Assembly: GCA_015056325.1 (NCBI GenBank)
Contig: SVGL01000008.1
Span: 1-64,000 of the forward strand
DNA: 64,000 bases
From: Clostridiales bacterium
GTDB taxonomy: Bacteria > Bacillota > Clostridia > Christensenellales > Aristaeellaceae
Direction: 5' to 3'
The translations under genes were made by a program, and so were the position numbers. The notes under the pieces were generated by a model. It ran no database searches, was not told the DNA's origin, and saw nothing but the letters and a program-made list of their open reading frames with translations. Of this stretch, positions 32,357-56,632 are shown piece by piece (the first letter of the stretch is position 1; the number at the start of each line of letters is the position of its first letter).

Positions 32357-32435
32357 GAGGTCGGGCATCGGCCCGACTAGCGATAGCCAATGCTTGCATT
32401 GGCAGAGCGTAGCCAGCACTCGACTTTACGTCGAG
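32357..32435 (+). repeat. Hairpin-core-hairpin repeat family B, copy 1
   Basis: Lies in the 226-base gap between binding protein and permease. Hairpin GTCGGGC/GCCCGAC (32360-32377), a core at 32375-32417 that contains the palindrome CCAATGC-TT-GCATTGG, then hairpin CTCGAC/GTCGAG (32419-32435). The 43-base core is identical, in reverse orientation, to 56408-56450. Further hairpins flank it (CTGCACAG/CTGTGCAG at 32316-32343 and GCAGGCA/TGCCTGC near 32457-32476). Confidence 0.85.
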
Positions 32436-32525
32436 GGCTGGCCGACTGGATGGGAGGGCAGGCAACGCACTGCCTGCTCTCCTGATCCCTCCACAATAAT
32501 ACTGACCAAAAGGAAGGTGGCCATC

Positions 32526-33419: not shown

Positions 33420-35696
33420 ATGAAGGTGCTGATGATCATGATGCTTCTGGCTGCTGCCATGCTGGGGATCGCAACTGCGGAGGACTATCAGAACCCCATT
33501 CCTGTCCTGAACGACCAAGGGGTGAAGATGGACGCCGCTGATCCCTTTGTGATGCGCTTCAACGGAAAGTACTACCTGTATACCACCGGCGCGGAGGAGA
33601 TCCGCGTGTATGAATCGGAAGATCTCGTCCATTGGACGTTCAAGGGCCATTGTACCCGTAATGGTGAGGGCCGCATCGCCTATGCGCCGGAGGTGCTCTA
33701 CTGGCGCGGCGCATTCTATATGATCACCTCGCCCTCCGGTAATGGTCACTATATCATGAAGAGCGATTCTCCCCTGGGTCCTTTTGACCGGGTCACGGAG
33801 AACTTCGGCTACTCCATCGACGGCTCGCTCTTTGTCGGGGATGACGGCAAGCTCTATATGTTCAATCTGCCGGGGAATAAGTCCATCGGCATCGTGGAGA
33901 TCGATGACAAGACTCTGACTCCCAAGGGCGTGAACAAATCCACCGGCGTGACCCTCAACCACTGGACAGAGGGCCCCGGCATGATCCGCCGTGGGGAATG
34001 GAGCTACCTGACGTTCACCGGCAACCATTATCTGTCCACCGGTTATCGTGTTGCCTGGGCCAGCCGCAAGGGCGACGCTCTGGGCCGCTATACCCAGCCC
34101 AAGGATCATACGCTGATGATCAACAGCGTGTTCAAGGATTCCTTCACCGGTCTGGGCCACTCGGCCAACTTCTACGGCCCCGACCTGGACAGCATCTATA
34201 CCTCCTACCACTGCCATGCCCCGGAGCAGACCGGCGGCGGGCTGGTACGCTGGTACTGTGTGGATCGCCTGCTGACCAATGGCGGCTGGCTCTACACCAC
34301 CGGCCCCAGCGATACGGCAATGCCAGTGCCGAGTCAGCCGGATGTGCGCGGTGACGCCCAGGGTGACTTGCGAGACTTTGCTGACACGGCAGAAGGCTAT
34401 TTCACCGATGTCAACGCCAGCAGCCATTTCACCCAGGAGTGCAACTTTATCCTCAATGGCGGCGAAATGGCCTGGCGTATGGGTACCCGGGATGGCAAGA
34501 CGGCCCTTATCACCACCGACGGGGAGAAGATCTATTTCACTGTGGACGGCAAGACCATCTCCAAGGCCAATGTGCCTGAACTGGGCGAAAATGGCCGCAT
34601 CCATACCCTGCGGGTGGAATGCACGGAGGATATCCTCTATGTGTACATCGACGCCATGCGCCTGCTGACAGTAAAGAACCCCGCTATTGTGGCGGATACC
34701 ATCGGCGCGCTGAAGCGTGACGGCGCTGCATACAGCTTTATGGCTCACACTGCCAAGGCGCTGGGCGACGGTGATCTGACGGCGGTGAAGGCCATCCCCG
34801 GTCGTTTCGCGGCGGTTCATGCGGTGAACGGCGCGATGCTGGGAACCGTGGAGGGCCCGGAGCTGGAGGCCAAGGCGGCCCTGCTGGGCACGGCCATTTA
34901 CAACGTGCGCGTGGCTGCGGAAGGCGCGTACTGCTTCGACCTGACAGTTCGCGCCAAGGATGCGGGCAAGACGCTGACGATCCATCTGAATGAAAACGCG
35001 CAGGCGACGATCGTGATTCCCGCTGCGCCGGAGGGGGCGGACTGGTTCACCTTCACCACAGAGGCCATCGCCCTGCCTGCGGGTGACCATGCGCTGAGTC
35101 TGGCCGGCGAGGATGCGGCGGTGCTGACGATTTCCGCCTTCACCCACGCGGTCATGGAAGAAAAGACCTGGGCCCTGGACGAGAACAAGCGGGACGGCAT
35201 CATCACCCTGGGTCAGTTTGCAGCCAGGAACGGCGCGCTGTCCATCGGTACGGGAAAAAACAGCTTCGCCCTCATCGGCGATCAAGGCTGCACGGACTAC
35301 GAGATGCACGTCACCTTCGATATGCCCAGGCAGGGCAGCGGCTTCAGCGGCTTCCTGATGCACGCGACTCATGCGTCCATCCATCCCGATCAGGTGGCGG
35401 AGGCTTGCTACGGCTATGGTGTGGCCATCACCAATACCGGCCTGACCGTCCGCCGGATGAACTACGGGCATTCCATGGACGCCACCAAGGTCAAGATCGA
35501 CGGTTGGAAAAACCTTGAACAGGCGACGCTGACGATGCGGATGGAAGATAATGTGCTGTCCATCTTCGTGGGCGACGCGAAGGAGCCTGTCGCGGTCATT
35601 CATGACGCAGCGCCCTTTACCCACGGCATGTGCGGTTTGTTCTCCACGGGCAAGGAGCTGCAGGTGACGGAACTGTCCGTCAGGCCGCTGCAATAA
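33420..35696 (+). CDS. Exported GH43-family glycosidase with C-terminal beta domains
   Basis: A 758-residue exported protein. After a signal peptide (MKVLMIMMLLAAAMLGIATA) a five-bladed GH43 propeller (about 25-310) shows the three acidic residues: D41 in ADPFVMR (base), D134 in SIDGSLF and E184 in HWTEGPG (acid). Known activities are arabinofuranosidase, xylosidase or arabinanase. Behind it lie a beta-sandwich with the pattern TVDGKTISK (about 325-450), a CBM-like sheet (about 490-580) and a concanavalin-like module (about 590-755). It starts a trio of related genes and follows the permease by 30 bases. GAGGAGG is upstream. It probably trims arabinose or xylose from glycans outside the membrane before import. 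Confidence 0.9.
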   Translation: MKVLMIMMLLAAAMLGIATAEDYQNPIPVLNDQGVKMDAADPFVMRFNGKYYLYTTGAEEIRVYESEDLVHWTFKGHCTRNGEGRIAYAPEVLYWRGAFYMITSPSGNGHYIMKSDSPLGPFDRVTENFGYSIDGSLFVGDDGKLYMFNLPGNKSIGIVEIDDKTLTPKGVNKSTGVTLNHWTEGPGMIRRGEWSYLTFTGNHYLSTGYRVAWASRKGDALGRYTQPKDHTLMINSVFKDSFTGLGHSANFYGPDLDSIYTSYHCHAPEQTGGGLVRWYCVDRLLTNGGWLYTTGPSDTAMPVPSQPDVRGDAQGDLRDFADTAEGYFTDVNASSHFTQECNFILNGGEMAWRMGTRDGKTALITTDGEKIYFTVDGKTISKANVPELGENGRIHTLRVECTEDILYVYIDAMRLLTVKNPAIVADTIGALKRDGAAYSFMAHTAKALGDGDLTAVKAIPGRFAAVHAVNGAMLGTVEGPELEAKAALLGTAIYNVRVAAEGAYCFDLTVRAKDAGKTLTIHLNENAQATIVIPAAPEGADWFTFTTEAIALPAGDHALSLAGEDAAVLTISAFTHAVMEEKTWALDENKRDGIITLGQFAARNGALSIGTGKNSFALIGDQGCTDYEMHVTFDMPRQGSGFSGFLMHATHASIHPDQVAEACYGYGVAITNTGLTVRRMNYGHSMDATKVKIDGWKNLEQATLTMRMEDNVLSIFVGDAKEPVAVIHDAAPFTHGMCGLFSTGKELQVTELSVRPLQ

Positions 35697-35720
35697 GAAT
35701 CGTTGAGGGGAGGGTGAATC

Positions 35721-38009
35721 ATGAAGTTTCTGCTTCTTCTGCTGGCGCTGATGCTGCCCCTTTGCGCATTGGCTGAGGAATACGTCAACCCCATGACGGT
35801 GGAGGGGCAATATCCACCCATTGCCGGTGCACAGGATGACTACGGCATCGGCGATCCCTTCGTCATGCGGTGGAATGGCATGTATTACATGTACCCCTCC
35901 ACCTGCGAGGAACGGGTGAAGGTCTTCACCTCCCGCGATCTGGTCAACTGGACGGATGCGGGCTACTGCACCCAGGGCCGGGATGTGTACTTCGCCTACG
36001 CACCGGAGGTCATCTACTGGCGCGGCAGCTTCTACATGATCACATCCCCCAATGGGCGGGGGCATTACATCCTGAAAAGCGATTCCCCCCTGGGTCCCTT
36101 TGAGCTGATCACAGGGAACTTCGGCCACTCCATTGACGGTTCTTTCTTCAAGACCGACGATGGCCAGCTGATGATGCTCTTCCCGGACAACTGGATCATC
36201 AAGTCCGCTATGCTGGACAAGAAGACCCTGCTCCCATCCAATCTGGCCTCCACCACCGGTGCGACCCTCAAGCACTGGACGGAGGGGCCGGGGCTGTTCC
36301 GCCGGGGGGATTGGTACTACCTGACTTTCACGGGCAACCATGTTTGTTCCACCGGCTATCAGGTCAGCTTTGCCTCACGCAAGGGCGGGCCGCGCGGGAG
36401 CTTTGCCCAGCGCGAGGACGCAACACTGCTGATCAACAGCGTTTTCGGCGATGAATTCAAGGGCCTGGGGCATTCCTCCAACGTGGTCGGCCCTGACCTG
36501 GACAGCATGTACATCGCCTATCATTCGTTGGTATCCTTGGGCGGCCCGGCGCGGCTGTACAACCTGGATCGTCTGTTCACCAATAACGGCTTGCTGTATA
36601 CCTCCGGCCCCAGCAATTCTGCGATGCCTGTGCCGGAAATGCCGGACGTCTGGGGTGATGCGGACGGCGAACTGCACGGCTTTACTGAGCAGGTGGAGGG
36701 TTACTTCGCGGAGATTCCCGAAACCGCTGTCTTTACCCAGGAATGGAACTTCACCCTGAACAGCGGCACGGCAACGCTGCTGATCGGCCAGATGAACAGC
36801 GCAGATGTGACCGTGCAGGTGGATCAGACCAGCCTGACCCTGCTGGTGGATGGCAAAAAGAAAGAATCCGCCAAGCTGCCGGAGATCGGCCCGGCGGACT
36901 GCCTCCATACCCTGCGCGTGGAGGTCACCCCGGAGATTGCCTACTTCTATGTGGACGACATGCGGTTGCTGACGATGAAGAAGCCGGGCATCACCGCATC
37001 CCGCATCGGCGCCATTGCTTCCAACGACGTGACCTATGGCTTCATGGCCTGCACGGCGGAGGCGCTGGGCTCCTCCGATAACACAGCCCTCAAGCTGCTG
37101 CCCGGCGGATTCAGCGCCCGTCATGCCCTCAACGCGGCGGAGCTGACCTTCAAGGACTTCGGCACCCAGGAAGAGCTGGCGGCGCTGCTGGGCAAGGCGG
37201 ATTACAATGTGCGCATCGCGGAGGCTGGCGAGTACTGCTTCGACCTGATGGTAAAAAAGGCCGACAGCGGCAAGCAAGTGGCCATCGCCCTGGACGGGCA
37301 GGAAATCTGGTCAGGTGTGGTGCCGGAATTCACCGGACGCGACAAGAACTTCACCTTCACGACGGAGCCTGTGATGCTCCCGGCTGGCGACCATACCCTG
37401 ACCGTCACCGCGGAGGACGTGCTCCTCAACCGCATCAGTGCCTTTGCCCATACGCCCGTGGAGCCGATGACCTTCGATTTCACCACCAAGGCCCAGCGGG
37501 AGCACTTCATTACCTACGGCAACTTCATGCAGCGACCCAGCAATGGCGATCTGCGCATCCTCTCTGGCAAAAAAGGATTTGCACTCTTTGGTGAAGAGGG
37601 TTATACTGATTACGCTCTGGATGTGACCTTTGAGATACCGAGGAATGGAAACGGCTCCTGCGGTATTCTGCTGCGGACGACGGACGTTTCCTACTATGAC
37701 GCTCAGGTGGATGACAGCTACTTCGGCTATGCGATCGCCCTGTCCGACAAGGGTGTGACGCTCCGGCGTTCCCGCTATGGGCAGGTCGGCGCGAGTCCAT
37801 TCGAGGCAGTCAAGGCGTGGGAAACGGCGGAAACCGGCTCGCTGCACATCGAGGTGCGGGGCAGCCGGGTGGAGGTTTTCCTCCCTGGCGAAGCGGAACC
37901 GCTGCTGACCATGGACGACGGCAAGCCCTTCACCCACGGTATGTGGGGCTTCTTCTCCAAGGACAGGGGCCTGACGGTGCTGGAATGTACTGTTTCGCCG
38001 CTAGAATAA
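35721..38009 (+). CDS. Exported GH43-family glycosidase, paralogue of the upstream gene
   Basis: A 762-residue exported protein with the same domain order as its neighbour. Signal peptide MKFLLLLLALMLPLCALA; GH43 residues D45 (IGDPFVMR), D139 (SIDGSFF) and E188 (HWTEGPG); then the same chain of beta modules, ending in CTVSPLE against SVRPLQ in the neighbour. The shared layout over the full length shows tandem duplication, with enough divergence to suggest different linkage or side-chain preference. Its start is 25 bases after the previous stop, with GGGGAGG upstream. Confidence 0.9.
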   Translation: MKFLLLLLALMLPLCALAEEYVNPMTVEGQYPPIAGAQDDYGIGDPFVMRWNGMYYMYPSTCEERVKVFTSRDLVNWTDAGYCTQGRDVYFAYAPEVIYWRGSFYMITSPNGRGHYILKSDSPLGPFELITGNFGHSIDGSFFKTDDGQLMMLFPDNWIIKSAMLDKKTLLPSNLASTTGATLKHWTEGPGLFRRGDWYYLTFTGNHVCSTGYQVSFASRKGGPRGSFAQREDATLLINSVFGDEFKGLGHSSNVVGPDLDSMYIAYHSLVSLGGPARLYNLDRLFTNNGLLYTSGPSNSAMPVPEMPDVWGDADGELHGFTEQVEGYFAEIPETAVFTQEWNFTLNSGTATLLIGQMNSADVTVQVDQTSLTLLVDGKKKESAKLPEIGPADCLHTLRVEVTPEIAYFYVDDMRLLTMKKPGITASRIGAIASNDVTYGFMACTAEALGSSDNTALKLLPGGFSARHALNAAELTFKDFGTQEELAALLGKADYNVRIAEAGEYCFDLMVKKADSGKQVAIALDGQEIWSGVVPEFTGRDKNFTFTTEPVMLPAGDHTLTVTAEDVLLNRISAFAHTPVEPMTFDFTTKAQREHFITYGNFMQRPSNGDLRILSGKKGFALFGEEGYTDYALDVTFEIPRNGNGSCGILLRTTDVSYYDAQVDDSYFGYAIALSDKGVTLRRSRYGQVGASPFEAVKAWETAETGSLHIEVRGSRVEVFLPGEAEPLLTMDDGKPFTHGMWGFFSKDRGLTVLECTVSPLE

Positions 38010-38046
38010 GGTCATCCGGCAAAAGCTGATGAATGGAGTGCAAAAG

Positions 38047-38973
38047 TTGAAGAATTTGAATCTGAACCTGTCCGATCCCGGCAGGCTGCAAAAGGTAGCC
38101 CATGCGCTTTCCAACGAACTGCGGCTGAAGATCCTCTCCCTGCTGGACGAATGCAGCATGAATGTGCTGGAGCTGAGCCAGCGCCTTGGCGAGCCGATTT
38201 CGACGGTGTCCAACAGCATTGTGGTGCTGGAGGAGGCAGATCTCATCCGCACCGAGCGCCAGAGCGGGATCCGCGGTGTATCCAAGCTGTGCAGCCGCAA
38301 GAAGGACAATATCTCCATTCATTTGGCAAATATGGCAAAGCGGGAGCTGGAAAGCTTCTTCTACAATATGCCCATTGGCGCTTATTCAGATTTTGATGTG
38401 ACCCCTACCTGCGGGCTGCTCAGCCATGAAAGAAATCTGGGCGAAAATGACAATCCCGCGGCCTTCTATGACCCAGCGCGTTTTCAGGCGCAGCTGCTTT
38501 GGTTCCAGCAGGGCTATGTGGAGTACCGCTTTTCATCCCAAACGTTGATGGAACGTGAAACCCGCTGTCTGGCCATCTCCTTCGAGGCTTGCTCCGAAGC
38601 GCCCAACTACCGCAAGGACTGGCCCAGCGATATCACCGTCAGCATCAATGGCGTAGAGCTCGGCACCTGGTGCTGCCCGGGGGACTTTGGCGGAAGACAG
38701 GGGCGCTTCACACCTGAATGGTGGATGACCTCCTCCACGCAGTATGGTCTGATGAAGCGCTGGAAGGTGACCAATGATGGCTGCTATCTGGATGGCGAGA
38801 AGATTTCCGACGTCACGCTGGAGCAGCTGCATCTGACGGACAAGCCCTATATCGCCGTGCGGATCGGCGTGAAACCCGATGCGCTGCACAAGGGCGGTAT
38901 CAATCTCTTTGGCGAGAAATTCGGTGACTATAATCAGGCGATCGTGATGCGCCTGGATTGTACAGCAAAGTAA
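38047..38973 (+). CDS. ArsR-type winged-helix regulator with C-terminal sensor domain
   Basis: About 308 residues. The first 90 form an ArsR-like winged helix (LQKVAHALSNELRLKILSLL, then LSQRLGEPISTVSNSIVVLE as recognition helix). The remaining 200 form a beta-rich domain (ISFEACSEAPNYRKDWPSDI, VSINGVELGTWCCPGDFGG) that may bind a sugar. ATG at 38029 has no ribosome site, while GGAG lies eight bases before a TTG at 38047, so TTG is preferred. It is encoded inside the glycoside hydrolase cluster, so it probably controls the locus in response to a sugar. ArsR cysteine metal sites are absent. Operator sequence not identified. Confidence 0.78.
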   Translation: MKNLNLNLSDPGRLQKVAHALSNELRLKILSLLDECSMNVLELSQRLGEPISTVSNSIVVLEEADLIRTERQSGIRGVSKLCSRKKDNISIHLANMAKRELESFFYNMPIGAYSDFDVTPTCGLLSHERNLGENDNPAAFYDPARFQAQLLWFQQGYVEYRFSSQTLMERETRCLAISFEACSEAPNYRKDWPSDITVSINGVELGTWCCPGDFGGRQGRFTPEWWMTSSTQYGLMKRWKVTNDGCYLDGEKISDVTLEQLHLTDKPYIAVRIGVKPDALHKGGINLFGEKFGDYNQAIVMRLDCTAK

Positions 38974-39004
38974 AATATCGGACACATGAGAGGAGTACGG
39001 GAGC

Positions 39005-40759
39005 ATGAATGAAGCCCTGCGCATGGACTATCCCCGCCCCGACCGGGTTCGCGGAACCTGGTGTACCCTGAACGGCCAGTGGGACTTTGCCTTCGACAAG
39101 GAGAAGGTCGGCAAGAAAGAAAAATGGTACCGCGCACTGCCTGCCACACATAAGATCGAGGTGCCCTTCTGCTACCAGAGCAAGCTCTCCGGTATCAACA
39201 GCCAGGAGCACTGCGATGTGGTGTGGTATGCCCGGAAGATCAACATCCCGGCGGATATGACGGCCCGTCGCCTGCTGCACTTCGGCGCGGTTGACTACAT
39301 TGCCGATGTCTGGCTGGACGGTCAGTATCTGGGCGGCCATGAAGGCGGCTATACCCCCTTCACCTTTGACGTGACCGATCTGACCGAGGCTGGCGGCGAG
39401 TACACGCTGACCGTCCGCGCTGAGGATCGGCTGGACTTTGACCAGCCCCGCGGCAAGCAGAGCTTCCGCCCCGAGCCCTTCGAGTGCTGGTACACGCCTG
39501 TGACTGGCATCTGGCAGAGCGTGTGGCTGGAGGGGGTGGGCGAGTATTACCCCGTGGACTTCCGCCTGACACCCTGTTTGGAGCGCGCCAGCGTGAAGGT
39601 TGAGGTGTACCTCAACGAGCTGCCCAAGGACGCGTCCATCCGGCTGACGACCTCCTATAAGGGCGATGTGGTGGCTGTAAGCGACGTGAAGGTTCTCTCT
39701 GATCGCTGCGTGCAGACGGAGCTCTTCCTGCGCCACAACGAGCGTCTGGAGGGCTTCCACATGTGGTGGCCCCATGATCCTCGCCTGTACGACCTGACCA
39801 TCGAGACCATCGTGGGCGGCGAAGTGGTGGACAAGGTGGACACCTACTTCGGCATGCGCAAGGTCGAGGTGGTGAACGGCAAGGTGCTGCTGAACAACCA
39901 TGTGCTGTACCAGAAGCTGATCCTGGATCAGGGCTACTGGCCGGATGGCCTGCTGACCGCCCCCAGCGACGATGCGCTGCGCCGCGATGTTGAGCTGACC
40001 AAGGCCATGGGCTACAACGGTGCCCGCAAGCATCAGAAGTTTGAGGACCCCCGCTACCTGTACTGGGCGGACAAGCTCGGCCTGCTGGTCTGGGGTGAGC
40101 TGCCCAGCGCCTACTGGCTGCGCGACAGCCAGAAGCGCAACATGATGCGCGACCTATCCGAGGCCATCAAGCGCGACTATAACCACCCCTGCCTGATCAC
40201 CTGGGTGCCCATCAACGAGAGCTGGGGCGTGCCTTACATCCAGACCCAGGTGGAGGCCCAGGAGCTGGCGGACGCGCTCTACCACATGGTGCACAGCCTG
40301 GACGGCACCCGCATTGTCTCCGGAAACGACGGCTGGGAACAGGCCGCTACCGATCTGCTGACTGTGCATGACTACACCGCCTGGCCGGAGCAGCTCAGCC
40401 CCGAATACGGCAGCCTGGATACCATCTGCGACGGCAATCCCGGTGCGGGCCGTATCGTGACGGCCTGTGGCTACGATCACCGCGGCAAGCCTATGCTGCT
40501 GACCGAATATGGCGGCATCGCCATGGCGAAGGACTCCGGCGATGGCAACTGGGGCTACAACGGCGCGGCGAAGGACGAGGAAGCCTTCCTCAAGCGCTTC
40601 GAGGCCATCACCCAGGCCTTCAAGCACATGCCCGGCTTCGTGGGCTATTGCTACACTCAGTTGACGGACGTATTCCAGGAAGTTAACGGCCTGCTGGATA
40701 TGGACCGTACCCCCAAGGCGAATATCGATGAGATCCGCCGCATCAACAACCAGCGTTAA
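39005..40759 (+). CDS. GH2-family glycosidase (cytoplasmic)
   Basis: A 584-residue GH2 protein with no signal peptide, shorter than E. coli LacZ. The sugar-binding domain (WYARKINIPADM, YIADVWLDGQYLGGHEGGY), an immunoglobulin-like domain and the TIM barrel are all present. Catalytic residues are E405 in VPINESWG (acid/base) and E501 in LLTEYGG (nucleophile). Candidates are beta-galactosidase, beta-glucuronidase, beta-mannosidase or alpha-arabinopyranosidase; barrel residues do not decide. GAGAGGAG precedes the ATG. A terminator follows its stop. It likely acts on oligosaccharides already imported by the ABC systems. Confidence 0.9.
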   Translation: MNEALRMDYPRPDRVRGTWCTLNGQWDFAFDKEKVGKKEKWYRALPATHKIEVPFCYQSKLSGINSQEHCDVVWYARKINIPADMTARRLLHFGAVDYIADVWLDGQYLGGHEGGYTPFTFDVTDLTEAGGEYTLTVRAEDRLDFDQPRGKQSFRPEPFECWYTPVTGIWQSVWLEGVGEYYPVDFRLTPCLERASVKVEVYLNELPKDASIRLTTSYKGDVVAVSDVKVLSDRCVQTELFLRHNERLEGFHMWWPHDPRLYDLTIETIVGGEVVDKVDTYFGMRKVEVVNGKVLLNNHVLYQKLILDQGYWPDGLLTAPSDDALRRDVELTKAMGYNGARKHQKFEDPRYLYWADKLGLLVWGELPSAYWLRDSQKRNMMRDLSEAIKRDYNHPCLITWVPINESWGVPYIQTQVEAQELADALYHMVHSLDGTRIVSGNDGWEQAATDLLTVHDYTAWPEQLSPEYGSLDTICDGNPGAGRIVTACGYDHRGKPMLLTEYGGIAMAKDSGDGNWGYNGAAKDEEAFLKRFEAITQAFKHMPGFVGYCYTQLTDVFQEVNGLLDMDRTPKANIDEIRRINNQR

Positions 40760-40769
40760 GTGAATTCCG

Positions 40770-40809
40770 GCGCGGACAGCCTCATCGCGAGGGCCTGTCC
40801 GCGCTTTTT
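40770..40809 (+). terminator. Terminator between GH2 and third GH43 gene
   Basis: GCGCGGACAG (40770-40779) pairs with CTGTCCGCGC (40795-40804) and is followed by TTTTT. It lies only five bases before the AGGAGG of the next gene, so downstream expression depends on read-through. Confidence 0.88.
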
Positions 40810-40825
40810 CGATAGGAGGATGTTT

Positions 40826-43006
40826 ATGAGCATGAATACTGTGCGAAATCCCTATCCGCTGACTGACCTCTGGGATGGCCGGGAGATCGGCGACCCCTTT
40901 CTGATGCGCCACGACGGCCGATTCTACCTCTACTGCTCCAGCCACAGCCATTTACCGGGCATCAAGTGCTGGGTCAGCGAGGATATGATCCGCTTTGACT
41001 ATTACGGCTTTGTCTGCACGGACGAGCGAACCATCGGCGCGTATGCTCCGGAGGTCGCCTACAATGCGGGTAAGTTCTGGATGGTGACCTCGCCCCGGGG
41101 CAGCGGGCACTATCTGCTCAAGTCTGACAGTCCCCTCGGCCCCTTCGAGGTGGTCAGCGACAACCTGGGCGTGGGTATCGACGGCAGCATTTTCGTGGAT
41201 GACGATGGCCGCAGCTGGTTTTACCGGGCGAGCCATCAGGGCATCCGCGTGCACGAGATGCCCAATCCTGGAGAGATTGACGTGCGCAGCAAGGTCATCG
41301 AGGCCAGCTGGTTGGGACACTGGACGGAAGGCCCCCAGGTCATCAAGCGGGACGGCCGCTATTTCCTGACCGACACGGGCAACCATGTCTGCTGCCGGGG
41401 CTATCATGTGGACTACACCGTCTCCCGCAAGGGTGCAGATCGCGGCTACCGCAGACTGCTGGACGGTATGCTCCTGCTGGAGACCCGCGACGAGTACCAC
41501 GCCCTGGGCCATTCCTCCACCTGTGTCGGCCCGGACATGGACACCATGTATATCGTCTATCACAAAAACATCATCGGCGAGCGCAACAACCCGCTGCATC
41601 GTTCGCTTTGCATTGACCGCCTGTTTTTCAACGGTGACCGCATGTACACCAATGCAACATGGTGGCATCAGGCTGCGCCGGTGCAGCCCGTGTGCGTCAG
41701 CCGTTGCGACAAGGATCTGGTGGACGGCCTGCTGCCCGTAGCTGCGCCTGATACCTACACAGCGGAGATCAACATCCGCCTGAGGGAGGACACGGGCAGC
41801 GTGTGCTTCTCCGGCGTGATGCTGACCATCGGCAAAGACCGCCGCTGGACGCTCTCCACGGGTGAAAATGGCGTATTCCCTGGCAATGTGGCCACGGATG
41901 CGCTCATCACCATCAAGGTCAGCCTGCATATGGGGCTGCTGGTGCTGTGCGTCAACGGTATGGAATTTTTACGCAAGCAGACGACGCTGGGCGGCGGCAA
42001 GATTGGCATTGGCGCGGGCTGTGAACCTTCCTTCATCGGCTTCTCCGATGTGGCTCAGGGAAGCGCAGATGCTGCGGCTGACAAGCCTGTCCCCGGCGCA
42101 TTTGACGCGGCGCACGGCACAGCCTGCAGCGAAACGGCGGAAGGTGAAACCGGCTGCAATGCGTTGGTGGTGCGCCCCGGCGAGACAGTCGCCTATGCCC
42201 TGAATGTCTGGCAGGCGGGCAAATACCATCTGGCGATGACAGTGAAGGCCTCCGACGCGCCCACTACGCTGCTGGTCAACGGGTGGACAATGATCGCTCA
42301 GCCCACCGGCGCAGCTACGCAGGATCGCATGGAGAAGCGCTATTTCGGCGCCATTGAGCTGACTGCTGGCCGGCAGACCATGACTATCGCTGCGGAGGAA
42401 TCCGTCATCATCGACCGCATTTACCTCACCGAGGCGGACGACTTCACTCCGGCTGTCATCATCGACCGGGGCGAGGATGTGACCGGCGGCAGGCTCCACG
42501 TCATCGGCCACAAGCAAAAGGGAAGCATGCATCGCAAGTTCTGCGGCTACACAGCGGCGGAGGGCTACGGCGAGGGCTGGTATGGCGGCGCGGACTGGTA
42601 TGGTGCCCACTGGCGAGATTGCGCGCTGCACATGGTCATCAACTGTAAGCCCTGTGCGCCGGAAGCCCGCATCAGCGCCTACATCCGTTCTGACCGGGAG
42701 ACATGGCATCCCCATCAGGTAGCGGCTGGCCGGTTTGCCTATGCGGTGCATGTGACAGAGAACAGCATCCGCCTGTGCAAACAGGAGTACAGCGAAACGG
42801 TTCTGGCGGAAATGCCTATCACCATGGAATGGGGCGGCCAAATGAAGCTGACGCTGCGTGCCAGGGGCAGCCGCATCACCGTGGAGGGCGAGAATGGCCT
42901 GCTGCTGGAATACACCGACCCCATGCCGCTGATTGCCGGCCGCGTGGGTATCAGTGCCAGCACGGACGGCCTGGGATTTGAGACGCTGTACGTAAGCGAA
43001 GAATGA
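40826..43006 (+). CDS. Cytoplasmic GH43-family glycosidase, third paralogue
   Basis: A 726-residue GH43 protein without signal peptide. Key residues D23 (IGDPFLMR), D119 (GIDGSIF) and E168 (HWTEGPQ) match those of the exported paralogues, and SDSPLGPFE is shared word for word. The C-terminal beta modules are more diverged (LAMTVKASDAPTTLLVNGW, IGHKQKGSMHRKFCGY). AGGAGG is six bases before the ATG at 40826; earlier in-frame starts are too close or lack a site. Lacking export, it probably finishes imported arabino- or xylo-oligosaccharides that the exported paralogues begin to process. Confidence 0.88.
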   Translation: MSMNTVRNPYPLTDLWDGREIGDPFLMRHDGRFYLYCSSHSHLPGIKCWVSEDMIRFDYYGFVCTDERTIGAYAPEVAYNAGKFWMVTSPRGSGHYLLKSDSPLGPFEVVSDNLGVGIDGSIFVDDDGRSWFYRASHQGIRVHEMPNPGEIDVRSKVIEASWLGHWTEGPQVIKRDGRYFLTDTGNHVCCRGYHVDYTVSRKGADRGYRRLLDGMLLLETRDEYHALGHSSTCVGPDMDTMYIVYHKNIIGERNNPLHRSLCIDRLFFNGDRMYTNATWWHQAAPVQPVCVSRCDKDLVDGLLPVAAPDTYTAEINIRLREDTGSVCFSGVMLTIGKDRRWTLSTGENGVFPGNVATDALITIKVSLHMGLLVLCVNGMEFLRKQTTLGGGKIGIGAGCEPSFIGFSDVAQGSADAAADKPVPGAFDAAHGTACSETAEGETGCNALVVRPGETVAYALNVWQAGKYHLAMTVKASDAPTTLLVNGWTMIAQPTGAATQDRMEKRYFGAIELTAGRQTMTIAAEESVIIDRIYLTEADDFTPAVIIDRGEDVTGGRLHVIGHKQKGSMHRKFCGYTAAEGYGEGWYGGADWYGAHWRDCALHMVINCKPCAPEARISAYIRSDRETWHPHQVAAGRFAYAVHVTENSIRLCKQEYSETVLAEMPITMEWGGQMKLTLRARGSRITVEGENGLLLEYTDPMPLIAGRVGISASTDGLGFETLYVSEE

Positions 43007-45953: not shown

Positions 45954-46805
45954 TTACGCGGCCATGCCCCGGATTTCAACCGGGGTGAGGCCGTTTTTGA
46001 GAGAAATACGCTCAAAATTGTTAAAATCAATGTATTCAGAAACGAGCTGCTCAACTTCGGGACGCGAGGAGAAGTGAGTGCGGTACAAGCATTCGGTTTT
46101 CAAGGTGCCGAAGAAGTTTTCCATCGCTGCATTGTCATAAGGACAGCCAGGGCTGGACATGGATGGAGAAACGTGGTATTCTTGAGTCAGGTCGAAGTAT
46201 GCTTGGGACGTGTATTGAGACCCTTGGTCACTGTGGAGTGCGAGTCCACCAGTGACCTTTTCTTGTTTCAGGGCCTCGCGGATGGTGTCCGTGACCAGCG
46301 AAGAAGACATATCGGAGCCGATCTTCCATGCCAACACAGTCTTTCCGCACAAGTCCAGCACAGCACACATGTACAACATGCTGCCGGAAATCGGAATGTA
46401 GGTGATGTCTGTCACCCAGAACTGATTGGGCCGCACCTGATCAAAGCGGCGATTCAGCAGATTGGGATACCTGTGAACGGCCTGCTGGTATCGGGTATAT
46501 GCCCTGCGGCGGCGAATCACCGACAGCAGGTTCAGCTTGCGCATCACCCGCAGAATCGCCTTGAGGTTCACATGCTTCTTCTTCCGGCGCCAGAGCCAGC
46601 TTTGCACCCGCCGGATCCCATAGGTCTGCTTGCTATGCTGCTGACACTCCACGATCAGGTCAACCAGCCACTGATCCTTCGCTTCCTTTCCCTGCCTTTT
46701 CCGCCATGCGTAATACCCGCTGCGGGATACTTCAAACACCTTGCACATCGCTTCAACACTGTACTTCCCACGGAATCGTTCAATGACCCGATACTTCAAC
46801 TTCAC
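45954..46805 (-). CDS. IS3-family transposase OrfB (integrase-type catalytic subunit)
   Basis: A 283-residue DDE transposase. An HTH_21-type region (SVEAMCKVFEVSRSGYYAW, YGIRRVQSWL) precedes the rve integrase core with D133 (WVTDITYI), D193 (LHSDQGSQY) and E229 (CPYDNAAMENFFG), a DD(35)E spacing that fits IS3. It starts with GTG, overlapping the stop of OrfA; a TTG six bases further has better spacing from AGGAGG, so the exact start is open. In this family OrfA and OrfB are often joined by a -1 frameshift, but here coupling by overlap is also possible. All catalytic residues are present, so it is likely active. Confidence 0.93.
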   Translation of the reverse strand: MKLKYRVIERFRGKYSVEAMCKVFEVSRSGYYAWRKRQGKEAKDQWLVDLIVECQQHSKQTYGIRRVQSWLWRRKKKHVNLKAILRVMRKLNLLSVIRRRRAYTRYQQAVHRYPNLLNRRFDQVRPNQFWVTDITYIPISGSMLYMCAVLDLCGKTVLAWKIGSDMSSSLVTDTIREALKQEKVTGGLALHSDQGSQYTSQAYFDLTQEYHVSPSMSSPGCPYDNAAMENFFGTLKTECLYRTHFSSRPEVEQLVSEYIDFNNFERISLKNGLTPVEIRGMAA

Positions 46806-47104
46806 CTCCTTCCAGCTTCGGACAGAAAATTTCGCAGCAACTCCACCTGCATTCGCAGCTGCACAATCTCGTTGTTCCGCTTTACTTCTTCGCTTGCCGG
46901 CTCTTTGCGTGGGCGTCCCTTCGGACGGGGAATATACCCTGCTGCAATCTTCCGCTCTTTCCTTCGCTGCCGTTCCATGAGCTGCTTCAACTGCTTTTTC
47001 CTCAATCCATAGCTGGACGCTATTTCCCCATATGTTTCCCCCTGCTCATGTCGAACCTTCACAACCTCCGCCAGTTCTTCCACCTTCGTGTATCTTCTTT
47101 CCAT
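46802..47104 (-). CDS. IS3-family transposase OrfA (DNA-binding subunit)
   Basis: A 100-residue protein with an HTH motif in the first 50 residues (VVKVRHEQGETYGEIASSYG) and a coiled-coil C-terminal helix (EEVKRNNEIVQLRMQVELLR), the usual layout of OrfA, which binds the inverted repeats. A basic KGRPRKEP hinge stands between them. It overlaps OrfB by four bases. The start lies about 45 bases inside the first right-end repeat unit, so it is transcribed from near that IS end. Confidence 0.9.
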   Translation of the reverse strand: MERRYTKVEELAEVVKVRHEQGETYGEIASSYGLRKKQLKQLMERQRRKERKIAAGYIPRPKGRPRKEPASEEVKRNNEIVQLRMQVELLRNFLSEAGRR

Positions 47105-47149
47105 GCTAAAACCTCCTGTCGTAGTTTCTATTCTACAACAGGAGGCCTC

Positions 47150-47221
47150 TTTTTTCTATTGTCCGCTATCTGGGGAACTGTCCACTTTTTTCTATTGTCC
47201 GCTATCTGGGGAACTGTCCAC
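47150..47221. repeat. Tandem duplication of the right IS end (2 x 36 bp)
   Basis: Bases 47150-47185 and 47186-47221 are identical 36-bp units, each beginning TTTTTTCTATTGTCC and ending AACTGTCCAC. Each unit holds a complete right terminal repeat, so the element carries two right ends in tandem. Confidence 0.92.
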
Positions 47222-54187: not shown

Positions 54188-54217
54188 TGTACGCAGCCCA
54201 GGCGGGTGTGCTATAAT
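54188..54217 (+). promoter_or_regulatory. Promoter of the GH74-GH31 operon (extended -10)
   Basis: TATAAT at 54212-54217 preceded by TGC (extended -10), with only a weak -35 (TGTACG at 54188-54193). It lies about 40 bases before the GH74-like gene. Confidence 0.65.
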
Positions 54218-54256
54218 ACCCTCACAAGCATTGCGTCCAACTATATACAAAGGAGC

Positions 54257-56632
54257 GTGATTCCCATCAAGCCCCTGCCCTATCGTTATCGCCATCTGCC
54301 CATCGGCGGCGGCGGGTATGTGACCGGGTTCTTCTTCCACCCGACGGATCCCCGGGTCATGTACTGCCGCACCGACATCGGCGGCATGTACCGCTTTGAT
54401 TATGATACACAAACGTGGATCAGCCTGATTGACCACGTGTCCCCCATGGACAACCGGGAGACCTGCCCCATCTCCGCCGCGCTGGATGCGGAAAAGCCCG
54501 GCAAACTCTACATCGCCAGCGGCCTGTGGGATCCCCAGAGCAAGGGCAAGCTGACCGTCTCGGATGATTGCGGCGCGACCTCCCGCAGCCATGAGCTGCC
54601 CTGCTTCGTGCATGGCAACCTGCATGGCCGCAGCGCCGGCGAGCGCCTCCATTGGGACAGTACAACCCTGTGGCTGGCCAGCCAGCGGGACGGCCTGTTC
54701 CGCTCCCGGGACGAGGGCGCGACCTGGGAGAAGGTTGCTTTCTTCCCGGAGACCGGGTGCACCTTCGCGGCGAAAAAGGGCAAGCTGCTTCTCATCGGCA
54801 CGGAGGGACTGGCACGACGGGATGGCGACATGCGCGGGCCCAGCCTCTACGCCTCTTACGACGATGGCGAGACCTTCGTGCCCGTGCCCCAGCCGGAGTA
54901 CATTCCCGTCGAGGGCAGCCAGCTCCACGGACTGGTGGCCCAGCGCTGCACCTTCGATGATGACTACCTCTACGTCACCTTCTCCGCCAACGGCCCGCGC
55001 AGCCAGAACGTCGAAAAAGGCTACACCTGCGACTGCGGCGACTGCTCCAACGGGCGGGTGGTACGGTACGCCCTTGACAGCGAGCGCCTCGGCCCGATGG
55101 AGGACATCACGCCCGAAGCGGGCAACTGGGGCTTCTCCGCCATGGATGCGAAGCACGGCATGATCGTCACTGCCACCACCCATCGCCAGCACCAGGACGG
55201 GGACGCCATCTACCTCTCCTACGATCAGGGCAGGACCTGGAAGCCCATCCTCCACGGGCTGCGCGAGGGCCGCATGGACTTCCGCCTGCGCTACATGCGC
55301 CCGGAATACAACGGCGGCAGCAACATCGTCCACTGGATGACCGACGTGAAGATCGACCCTCACCGCCCGGACGTGGCCTGGTTCAACACCGGCACTGGCG
55401 TCTTCCGCACGCAGAACCTGCGGGCTGACACCGTCGTCTGGCAGGACTGGTGCGACGGCATGGAGGAGACCGTGCACATCAACATCCACGCACCCGCCAC
55501 GGGCCGGGTACAGCTGCTGGATATGATCGGCGACCTGGGCGGCTTTGCCTTCACAGATGTGGACAAGCACTGCGAGAACTCCTTCGCCAACGAAAAGGGC
55601 GACCGCTGGATCACCTGCCTGAGCTGCGACTGGCCGGACAACGACCCGGACCACATCGTCGTAGCGGCCCGCGGCAACTGGACGGGCAGGACGCTGGGCG
55701 GCCTGATCGTCAGCCGGGATGGCGCGCAAAGCTGGCAGCGTCTCCCTACCCCCACGGGCCTGGGCGATGAGCTGGACGCGCTGCTCAAGCGCATTGAGCG
55801 CCCCAACACCAACGCCGGCTGGGTGGCCGTCAGCGCCGACGGATCCACTTACGTCTGGGCCGTGGCGGACCGCATCTTCCTGCATGCGAAGAACCTCATC
55901 GTCAGCCACGACCAGGGCGCGACCTTCCGCCGCTGCACCGTGCTGGACATGGACGGGCAGTCCTTCACCGGCATGATCAAGCCCCTGGCTGACCGCTGCA
56001 TGCCCAACGTCTTCTATGGCTTCGGGGACAAGGGCGAGCTCTTCGTCAGCACCGACGGCGGCGATACCTTCCGGCAGAAGGCGGCTCCTTCAGGCTTCCC
56101 TGCCGCGCACTTCGGCAAGGTAGACTGCGCTGACCGCACGGAAATCCGTGTCGCCGGCGGCGAACCGGGGGGCATGTACATCGCCACCGGATGCGGCCTT
56201 TGGAAGCTGTATTACGACGCCGAAACAGACGAATTCACCGGCACACGCCTGACCGCAGAGGGCGACAAGGCCTTCTGCGTGGGCCTCGGTCTGGGCCGGC
56301 CCGGCGGCGATTACTTCACCGAGCCCAAGGCGATCTACTTCAGCGGCGTCATTAACGGGGAATACGGTTTCTACCGTATTCGGCCATCATCGGGCATGAA
56401 GCCCGACGCTGGCTACGCTCTGCCAATGCAAGCATTGGCTATCGCTAGTCAGGGCAAACGCCCTGACCTCCCTCGCTTCGACGAATGCATGACCATCGAG
56501 CGCATCAACAACGACCAGCAGATGTTCGGCGGCATCCACTCCATCGACGGCGACAAGCGCGTCTTCGGGCGCTTCTTCCTCGCCACGGGCGCCAGCGGAC
56601 TGCTATACGGTATACAGGAGGATTCATTATGA
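54257..56632 (+). CDS. GH74-like beta-propeller glycoside hydrolase with in-frame repeat insertion
   Basis: About 791 residues. The start GGGGYVTGFFFHPTDPRVMY and CRTDIGGMYRFD match GH74 xyloglucanases, and repeated BNR-type units (SYDDGETFVPV, SYDQGRTWKPI, SRDGAQSWQRL, STDGGDTFRQK) build the twin propellers. No signal peptide is visible, which is unusual for GH74. Residues 712-738 are the translation of repeat family B (56390-56470) and interrupt the last BNR unit. The start is uncertain: AAGGAG at 54250-54255 is one base from a GTG at 54257, and the next in-frame codons ATT or ATC are better spaced but rare as starts. It overlaps the GH31 gene by ATGA. Endo-xyloglucanase or a related glucanase is likely. 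Confidence 0.82.
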   Translation: MIPIKPLPYRYRHLPIGGGGYVTGFFFHPTDPRVMYCRTDIGGMYRFDYDTQTWISLIDHVSPMDNRETCPISAALDAEKPGKLYIASGLWDPQSKGKLTVSDDCGATSRSHELPCFVHGNLHGRSAGERLHWDSTTLWLASQRDGLFRSRDEGATWEKVAFFPETGCTFAAKKGKLLLIGTEGLARRDGDMRGPSLYASYDDGETFVPVPQPEYIPVEGSQLHGLVAQRCTFDDDYLYVTFSANGPRSQNVEKGYTCDCGDCSNGRVVRYALDSERLGPMEDITPEAGNWGFSAMDAKHGMIVTATTHRQHQDGDAIYLSYDQGRTWKPILHGLREGRMDFRLRYMRPEYNGGSNIVHWMTDVKIDPHRPDVAWFNTGTGVFRTQNLRADTVVWQDWCDGMEETVHINIHAPATGRVQLLDMIGDLGGFAFTDVDKHCENSFANEKGDRWITCLSCDWPDNDPDHIVVAARGNWTGRTLGGLIVSRDGAQSWQRLPTPTGLGDELDALLKRIERPNTNAGWVAVSADGSTYVWAVADRIFLHAKNLIVSHDQGATFRRCTVLDMDGQSFTGMIKPLADRCMPNVFYGFGDKGELFVSTDGGDTFRQKAAPSGFPAAHFGKVDCADRTEIRVAGGEPGGMYIATGCGLWKLYYDAETDEFTGTRLTAEGDKAFCVGLGLGRPGGDYFTEPKAIYFSGVINGEYGFYRIRPSSGMKPDAGYALPMQALAIASQGKRPDLPRFDECMTIERINNDQQMFGGIHSIDGDKRVFGRFFLATGASGLLYGIQEDSL
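56390..56470 (-). repeat. Hairpin-core-hairpin repeat family B, copy 2, inside a coding region
   Basis: 81 bases, exactly 27 codons of the GH74-like gene. Core 56408-56450 is the reverse complement of 32375-32417 over 43 bases without mismatch. The two flanking hairpins (TCGGGC/GCCCGA at 56390-56406; GTCAGGGC/GCCCTGAC at 56448-56467) differ in sequence from those of copy 1 but keep pairing and loop size. Confidence 0.88.

Follow-up and report, generated by a model that had tools for sequence, protein, structure and literature searches.

A dispersed DNA repeat of three hairpins and about 90 nt lies in frame within protein genes of gut Clostridia

How does a palindromic repeat come to lie, with its frame open, inside a glycoside hydrolase gene of a clostridial genome, and what kind of DNA is it? 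The question arises from a stretch of 64,000 nucleotides (hereafter, the window) of a MAG that is 84.87% complete, with 5.25% contamination. The original prediction placed in a GH74-like gene of this window an in-frame palindromic insertion of 81 bases, encoding 27 residues, whose core recurred in an intergenic region. The core is indeed repeated identically, at 32377-32417 (plus strand) and 56408-56448 (minus strand), and two matches occurred in none of 100 dinucleotide shuffles. A covariance model built on 30 copies extended both cores to full elements. The in-frame palindromic insertion held, but not its proposed size: from protein alignment with orthologues, the net insertion is of 96 nt, or 32 codons, at approximately 56381-56476, with the element itself at 56380-56470. 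The features are as follows:

54206 to 56632, plus strand: host gene, taken as ORF, for a GH74-like (BNR/Asp-box) protein; the ORF is open through the insertion.
56381 to 56476, plus strand: net insertion of 32 codons, with edges approximate to a few nt (protein alignment with 14 named orthologues and DNA comparison in 28 rows).
56380 to 56470, minus strand: three-hairpin element, antisense to the gene and open in frame (covariance model 98.8 bits; empty site in relatives).
56448 to 56467, minus strand: hairpin P1 (GTCAGGGC...GCCCTGAC) of this copy.
56422 to 56439, minus strand: hairpin P2 (GCCAATGC TT GCATTGGC) of this copy, from the covariance-model alignment.
56383 to 56413, minus strand: hairpin P3 (GCCA...TGGC) of this copy, with GTA before the first G, counted from the covariance-model alignment.
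32357 to 32445, plus strand: second copy, between solute-binding-protein and permease genes (Pfam); covariance model 105.2 bits.

Elsewhere, the window holds an insertion sequence at 45954-47217 that we take to be of the IS3 type. Its ORF at 45954-46805 (minus strand) encodes the domains HTH_21 and rve, and beside the insertion sequence lie two tandem copies of a 36-bp sequence (47146-47217). It also holds a cluster of three GH43-family genes (33420-43003), which have common stretches 62-78% identical.

The GH74-like protein matches the Pfam families BNR and Sortilin-Vps10 above the cut-off, and its reading frame is open across the whole insertion, which adds the residues RPSSGM...DLPR between FYRI and FDEC. 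Homologues show a clean gap at this point, as the original prediction had anticipated: the insert is missing in all 14 named orthologues spanning the site, which come from Clostridia/Clostridiales MAGs, with ruminant gut samples in many titles, and in all 12 other same-genus orthologues aligned (the gene was found in 13 of 18 genomes of the genus, source MAG included). These two sets overlap, with two loci identical in the test stretch and about seven that look identical in the aligned rows; a further locus (L046, 39% over residues 144-205) stops short of the insertion site and was left out of the count. DNA alignment gave a net difference of 96 nt for 26 of the 28 rows and of 63 nt for the remaining two, which represent a single sequence carrying a separate indel upstream. 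The 96 nt exceed the covariance-model length of 91 by five in comparisons with relatives other than G017. In the predicted structure of the 788-residue chain (mean pLDDT 78.8), residues 709-740 have a pLDDT <50 and sit between strands 699-705 and 744-746, the insert being by arithmetic residues 706-737. Low pLDDT between two strands is as expected for a loop added to the GH74-like protein.

The element comprises three consecutive hairpins, P1-P2-P3, in about 90 nt, with most copies of 84-92 nt. In the family, P1 is GGTCGGGC..GCCCGAC, P2 is in many copies GCCAATGC NN GCATTGGC, and P3 is GCCA..TGGC with a highly variable tip; the segments TAGCGA and GAGCGTA are conserved between hairpins, and CGA closes the element. 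Its two ends, GGTCGGGC and GGCCGA, have in common in inverted order only TCGG(C), an inverted similarity of about 4-6 bp. There is also a long form of about 160 nt, in which a further module of two hairpins (GAACC...GGTTCC) separates P2 from P3, seen among the loci scanned at three places in the source MAG and at one in another genome, G002 (L124:2500-2650, L151:8870-9020, L121 at about 640-800 on the minus strand, and L052:670-830).

The two window copies are not a chance pair. The source MAG contains at least 148 covariance-model copies among 150 scored candidates, and a search with the core at up to two mismatches gave 35 matches in 33 places (two were read on both strands) against none for the reversed control. 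In all, 149 copies from 79 sources (the window and 78 stretches) were grouped into 103 clusters; several copies are in head-to-tail arrays with a period of 89-106 nt, mostly 91-94. Among 60 genomes, with up to 73 candidates scored per genome, the element was found in 15 of 18 of the same genus, source included, in two of 18 others of the family, with one copy each, and in none of 24 from other families of the order. An order-wide draw, with 14 candidates scored per genome, retrieved it from two of 297 genomes, one of them the source. The element thus appears close to specific for one genus of gut Clostridia. It is not limited to protein genes and their surroundings: two genomes (G004 and G006) carry a full copy within the RNase P RNA (L167 and L169, 1361-1794), in a hairpin that we take to be P12. 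A model search found the element inside two of 17 RNase P RNA loci, with copies outside the gene in two further loci. An exact match to the core pattern is also present in the IMG/VR contig IMGVR_UViG_3300029305_011647, with a full copy (L195:3268-3355) at the 3' end of an SNF2-type helicase gene. Transfer of the element from strain to strain by phages is conceivable.

Covariation in the stems is strong. In an alignment of 149 copies (143 distinct rows) from one genome, standard pairs fill 93.7% of pair cells, and both stem sides have changed in 543 cells, compared with 148 after shuffling and 31-124 in slid controls; fitting of this alignment to the structure biases the figures in favour of pairing. 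Stem mismatches in P1, P2 and P3 comprise 65 G.T and 58 A.C, a count that excludes helix 2 of the model, where a fixed consensus G.T pair occurs (116 G.T, 5 A.C). Since selection at the RNA level should favour G.U, these near-equal numbers suggest pairing at the DNA rather than the RNA level, and complementarity might be kept as hairpin DNA or through template-switch repair. Watson-Crick pairing is 93.5% in copies inside genes (18 rows) versus 92.4% in the others (131 rows).

We classed 18 copies as inside 16 protein genes, and all 18 are in frame and stop-free, which extends to the family what the original prediction had seen in one gene. As read from Pfam matches, the hosts are the GH74-like gene, GH130, a glycogen debranching enzyme and a heparinase-like gene; PriA, KsgA, QueA and a RimO-like gene; two ABC exporters; a B12/radical-SAM gene, with three copies; a response regulator, where the copy lies in the receiver domain; GLF, an aldo/keto reductase and an amidoligase-like ORF; and one ORF without a name. 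We presume the names PriA, KsgA, QueA and RimO from the matched Pfam families or from reading by eye. Classing used a codon score trained on 33 ORFs of the window, plus reading by eye, and 13 of the 18 assignments are well supported: five copies are backed by orthologues (window, PriA and the three in the radical-SAM gene), and for eight the Pfam match reaches to or across both sides (L135, L122, L142, L100, L121, L159, L114 and L158). The five weaker ones have Pfam on one side only (L090, L161 and L126), no Pfam match (L150) or were assigned by eye (L143).

The search for these copies started from ORFs open through the element and is therefore biased toward in-frame copies. A frame-blind scan, whose thresholds may let genes with <40 codons on one side escape, listed 32 of the 103 clusters, with 14 in frame and open; L126:2501 is in this list and was counted as in-gene from its other frame, whereas L162:5642 and L091 (from a spanning ORF) and L143 (by eye) are outside it. 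By eye, we found no clear mid-gene, out-of-frame copy among 17 other clusters with coding-like flanks, which were judged to be intergenic, at gene ends or arrays from their flanks and, for four, also from translations. Copies outside genes are open in 188 of 444 frames, which means that a bare insertion would in many cases disrupt the gene. The model length is 2 mod 3 in 13 of 18 in-gene copies versus 28 of 74 elsewhere (Fisher p 0.016); 11 clusters >110 nt were excluded from length and frame counts, and one of the 103 was dropped for a short flank. Judging from sequence, the ribosome is expected to read each in-gene copy as about 30 additional residues. In another genome (G007, L185:1408-1588), an ORF is open through two elements in tandem with a spacing of 93 nt, in a gene with a flank that resembles the gene interrupted at L150 of the source genome.

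Six insertion sites were compared with relatives, and all were empty, as had been foreseen, except for that of PriA, common to one relative. The three radical-SAM copies are missing in 13 of 13 rows (10 genomes), a copy in a leader is missing in 21 of 21 rows (17 genomes), and the PriA copy is missing in 15 of the 16 other genomes aligned, being present in G002; PriA of G003 consists of gene pieces only and was left out of the alignment at the site. Net lengths at the five in-gene sites compared at the DNA level (five of the 18 in-gene copies) are multiples of three. Versus G017, the closest relative by PriA, the net insertion exceeds the model length by four in PriA (93 and 89) and also in the three radical-SAM copies (87/83, 96/92 and 93/89). 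Versus other relatives, the net lengths of the latter are 78-102, 90-96 and 90-93, all of them still multiples of three; that of the leader copy varies freely (75-94).

In G002, the PriA insert is reduced by 33 nt (3 + 30 nt), with the frame kept. dS in PriA is 0.46 between G000 and G017, and 0.73 and 0.63 between G002 and these two. G000 and G017 are thus closer to each other than either is to G002, which implies that the PriA insert was precisely lost from G017, gained twice, or exchanged. Among the three genomes, dN/dS for PriA is 0.06-0.11, indicative of purifying selection, and the gene is the sole match in the source MAG; from these ratios, PriA carrying the insert looks functional.

Together, the dispersed copies, the empty sites in relatives and the in-frame copies in genes show that the element is dispersed, has been recently mobile and is tolerated in frame, which supports the suggestion of the original prediction that it might be a mobile DNA that lands in genes. 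Very likely, it is a non-autonomous mobile DNA element, which would be moved in trans as folded single-stranded DNA and whose in-frame insertions would be retained. An enzyme acting in trans would move it in this form and insert it 5' of purine-rich DNA; gene-breaking insertions would be lost, leaving those that are in frame and compatible with a loop; and the stems would be conserved either because the machinery recognises the DNA hairpins, and not a transcript, or by restoration via template-switch repair. We found no mobilising gene in a search covering the Y1 transposase. Neither was there a consistent target-site duplication: comparisons of k-mers (k = 1 to 6) with shuffled pairings gave no strong offset, the nearest hint being common 3-mers at one offset (10 versus 3.3 expected). 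One radical-SAM copy has ATTC on both flanks. The 5-nt sequence TTTAT occurs on both sides of the PriA copy and was considered as a duplication but rejected, as its spacing of 95 (counted by hand) does not match the net insertion of 93 nt.

The element could instead be a GTAG-type REP moved by a RAYT-like Y1 transposase that the MAG lacks or that has been lost, a possibility that we consider unlikely. At the foot of the P3 hairpin, 109 of 149 copies have GTAG, the last base of which is the first of the stem, and the hairpins appear to pair at the DNA level; in-gene REPs, and also ERIC elements, are on record from other phyla (PMC10969869 and PMC3733652). However, GAAG replaces GTAG in 28 of 149 copies, and no Y1 transposase (Y1_Tnp) was found in the source MAG, despite its many copies of the element. 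The enzyme is present in six of 18 genomes of the genus, and its seven loci showed no significant copy nearby, only one chance-level match (E 0.28). The unit is also 2-4 times longer than GTAG- or CGTC-tagged REPs, with three hairpins and in head-to-tail arrays, whereas these REPs are described as units of 20-40 bp, mainly in head-to-head dimers (PMC3733652). GTAG REPs are mobilised by RAYTs, none of which was found near copies of the element. According to PMC3733652, CGTC-tagged repeats, among which the palindromic elements of R. conorii are placed, seem to be without a dedicated transposase. GTAG repeats are named there for Proteobacteria, Cyanobacteria, Chloroflexi and the PVC group, and the word Firmicutes does not occur in the text of that paper.

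Outside genes, 34 of 85 clusters are followed on the same strand, within 25 nt 3' of the element, by a Shine-Dalgarno (SD) sequence and start codon; the opposite side gave six of 85, and control positions displaced by 200-800 nt gave 3-8 of 85. This arrangement, and the strong stem covariation, would fit a cis-regulatory RNA in 5' leaders that controls translation of the next gene. We regard this explanation as improbable, because an RNA helix tolerates G.U whereas G.T mismatches barely exceed A.C; moreover, 11 of the 18 copies within genes lie antisense to the host, copies lie within the RNase P RNA, and the tested leader copy is missing in all 17 other genomes of the genus aligned. In each of the three classes of sites, the DNA directly 3' of the element is rich in A and purines, with A prominent in its first nine bases; for in-gene copies, A is 38% in these nine bases versus 18-19% further on. 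We read this as a preference of the mobile element for purine-rich DNA, of which SD sites would be a common case, although some copies may serve regulation.

Several in-gene copies lie within conserved motifs where an added loop would be expected to harm, at sites that we take to be after the radical-SAM cysteines, beside DIMLP in the receiver domain and in the zinc region of PriA. Such locations would be explained if the insert were removed after transcription, as a small intron, or skipped by the ribosome, as happens with the bypassing elements of yeast mitochondria, and the frame would then be irrelevant. This seems to us very improbable, given that all 18 in-gene copies are in frame and stop-free, that 3 and 30 nt are missing from the PriA copy of G002, and that no Rfam match came near the gathering score: the window has no intron-family match at this level, and a permissive search with one short and one long copy stayed far below it. 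Lastly, an assembly or binning artefact of a single MAG is hardly credible, even if this MAG is incomplete and slightly contaminated and one array runs to the edge of a contig (C1), since the family occurs in 15 of 18 genomes of the genus and G002 also has the PriA copy, in its shorter form.

By analogy, the mobile element appears to work like a Rickettsia palindromic element (RPE), from which it differs in build and host; this agrees with the likeness drawn in the original prediction, which fits by behaviour, in the in-frame copies within genes and the empty sites in relatives. As with RPEs and Wolbachia palindromic elements, it is a dispersed palindromic repeat found both in intergenic regions and in frame within many unrelated conserved genes (for the behaviour of RPEs, see PMC10969869, PMC3767692 and PMC2229807). 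RPEs are also reported within the genes for tmRNA and RNase P RNA (PMC2229807), and the clostridial element is likewise within RNase P RNA in two of the 17 genomes where this RNA was found. RPEs, however, measure 105-146 bp and have a long stem-loop structure as well as inverted repeats of about 12 bp at their termini (PMC2229807), whereas the clostridial element, with about 90 nt and three separate hairpins, has neither that length nor that stem-loop, and its hosts are Clostridia instead of Rickettsiales. It also shows head-to-tail arrays and a preference for positions 5' of SD sites. MITEs such as ERIC/RU-1, NEMIS and RUP are also short, dispersed and sometimes fused in frame to genes (PMC10969869 and PMC2229807), but the clostridial element has only about 4-6 bp of inverted similarity at its ends and no consistent target-site duplication, and a search with the Y1 transposase found no parent IS. 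Within the terms searched and the open-licence library covered, we found no paper on such an element in Clostridia. In build, the clostridial element may also be likened to the BOX elements of pneumococcus, a modular stem-loop array dispersed in a single bacterial lineage, judging from their general description.

Rickettsia supplies the best-known cases of palindromic repeats lying in frame in conserved genes, and here such repeats occur in a clostridial genus. Tentatively, and with less confidence than for its mobility, we propose that the element might be an independent second origin of coding palindromes outside the Rickettsiales, in which an enzyme other than a Y1 transposase would move folded single-stranded DNA, target purine-rich DNA and add loops of about 30 residues. 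If so, an element of separate origin would be steadily extending housekeeping proteins by such loops, and the RNase P RNA by a hairpin array. The copies in PriA, KsgA, QueA, ABC ATPases and the RNase P RNA, together with empty sites at graded distances, offer a test of how proteins accept a segment of about 30 residues and of how it decays, and the clostridial element provides a fresh system for finding the mover of such repeats.
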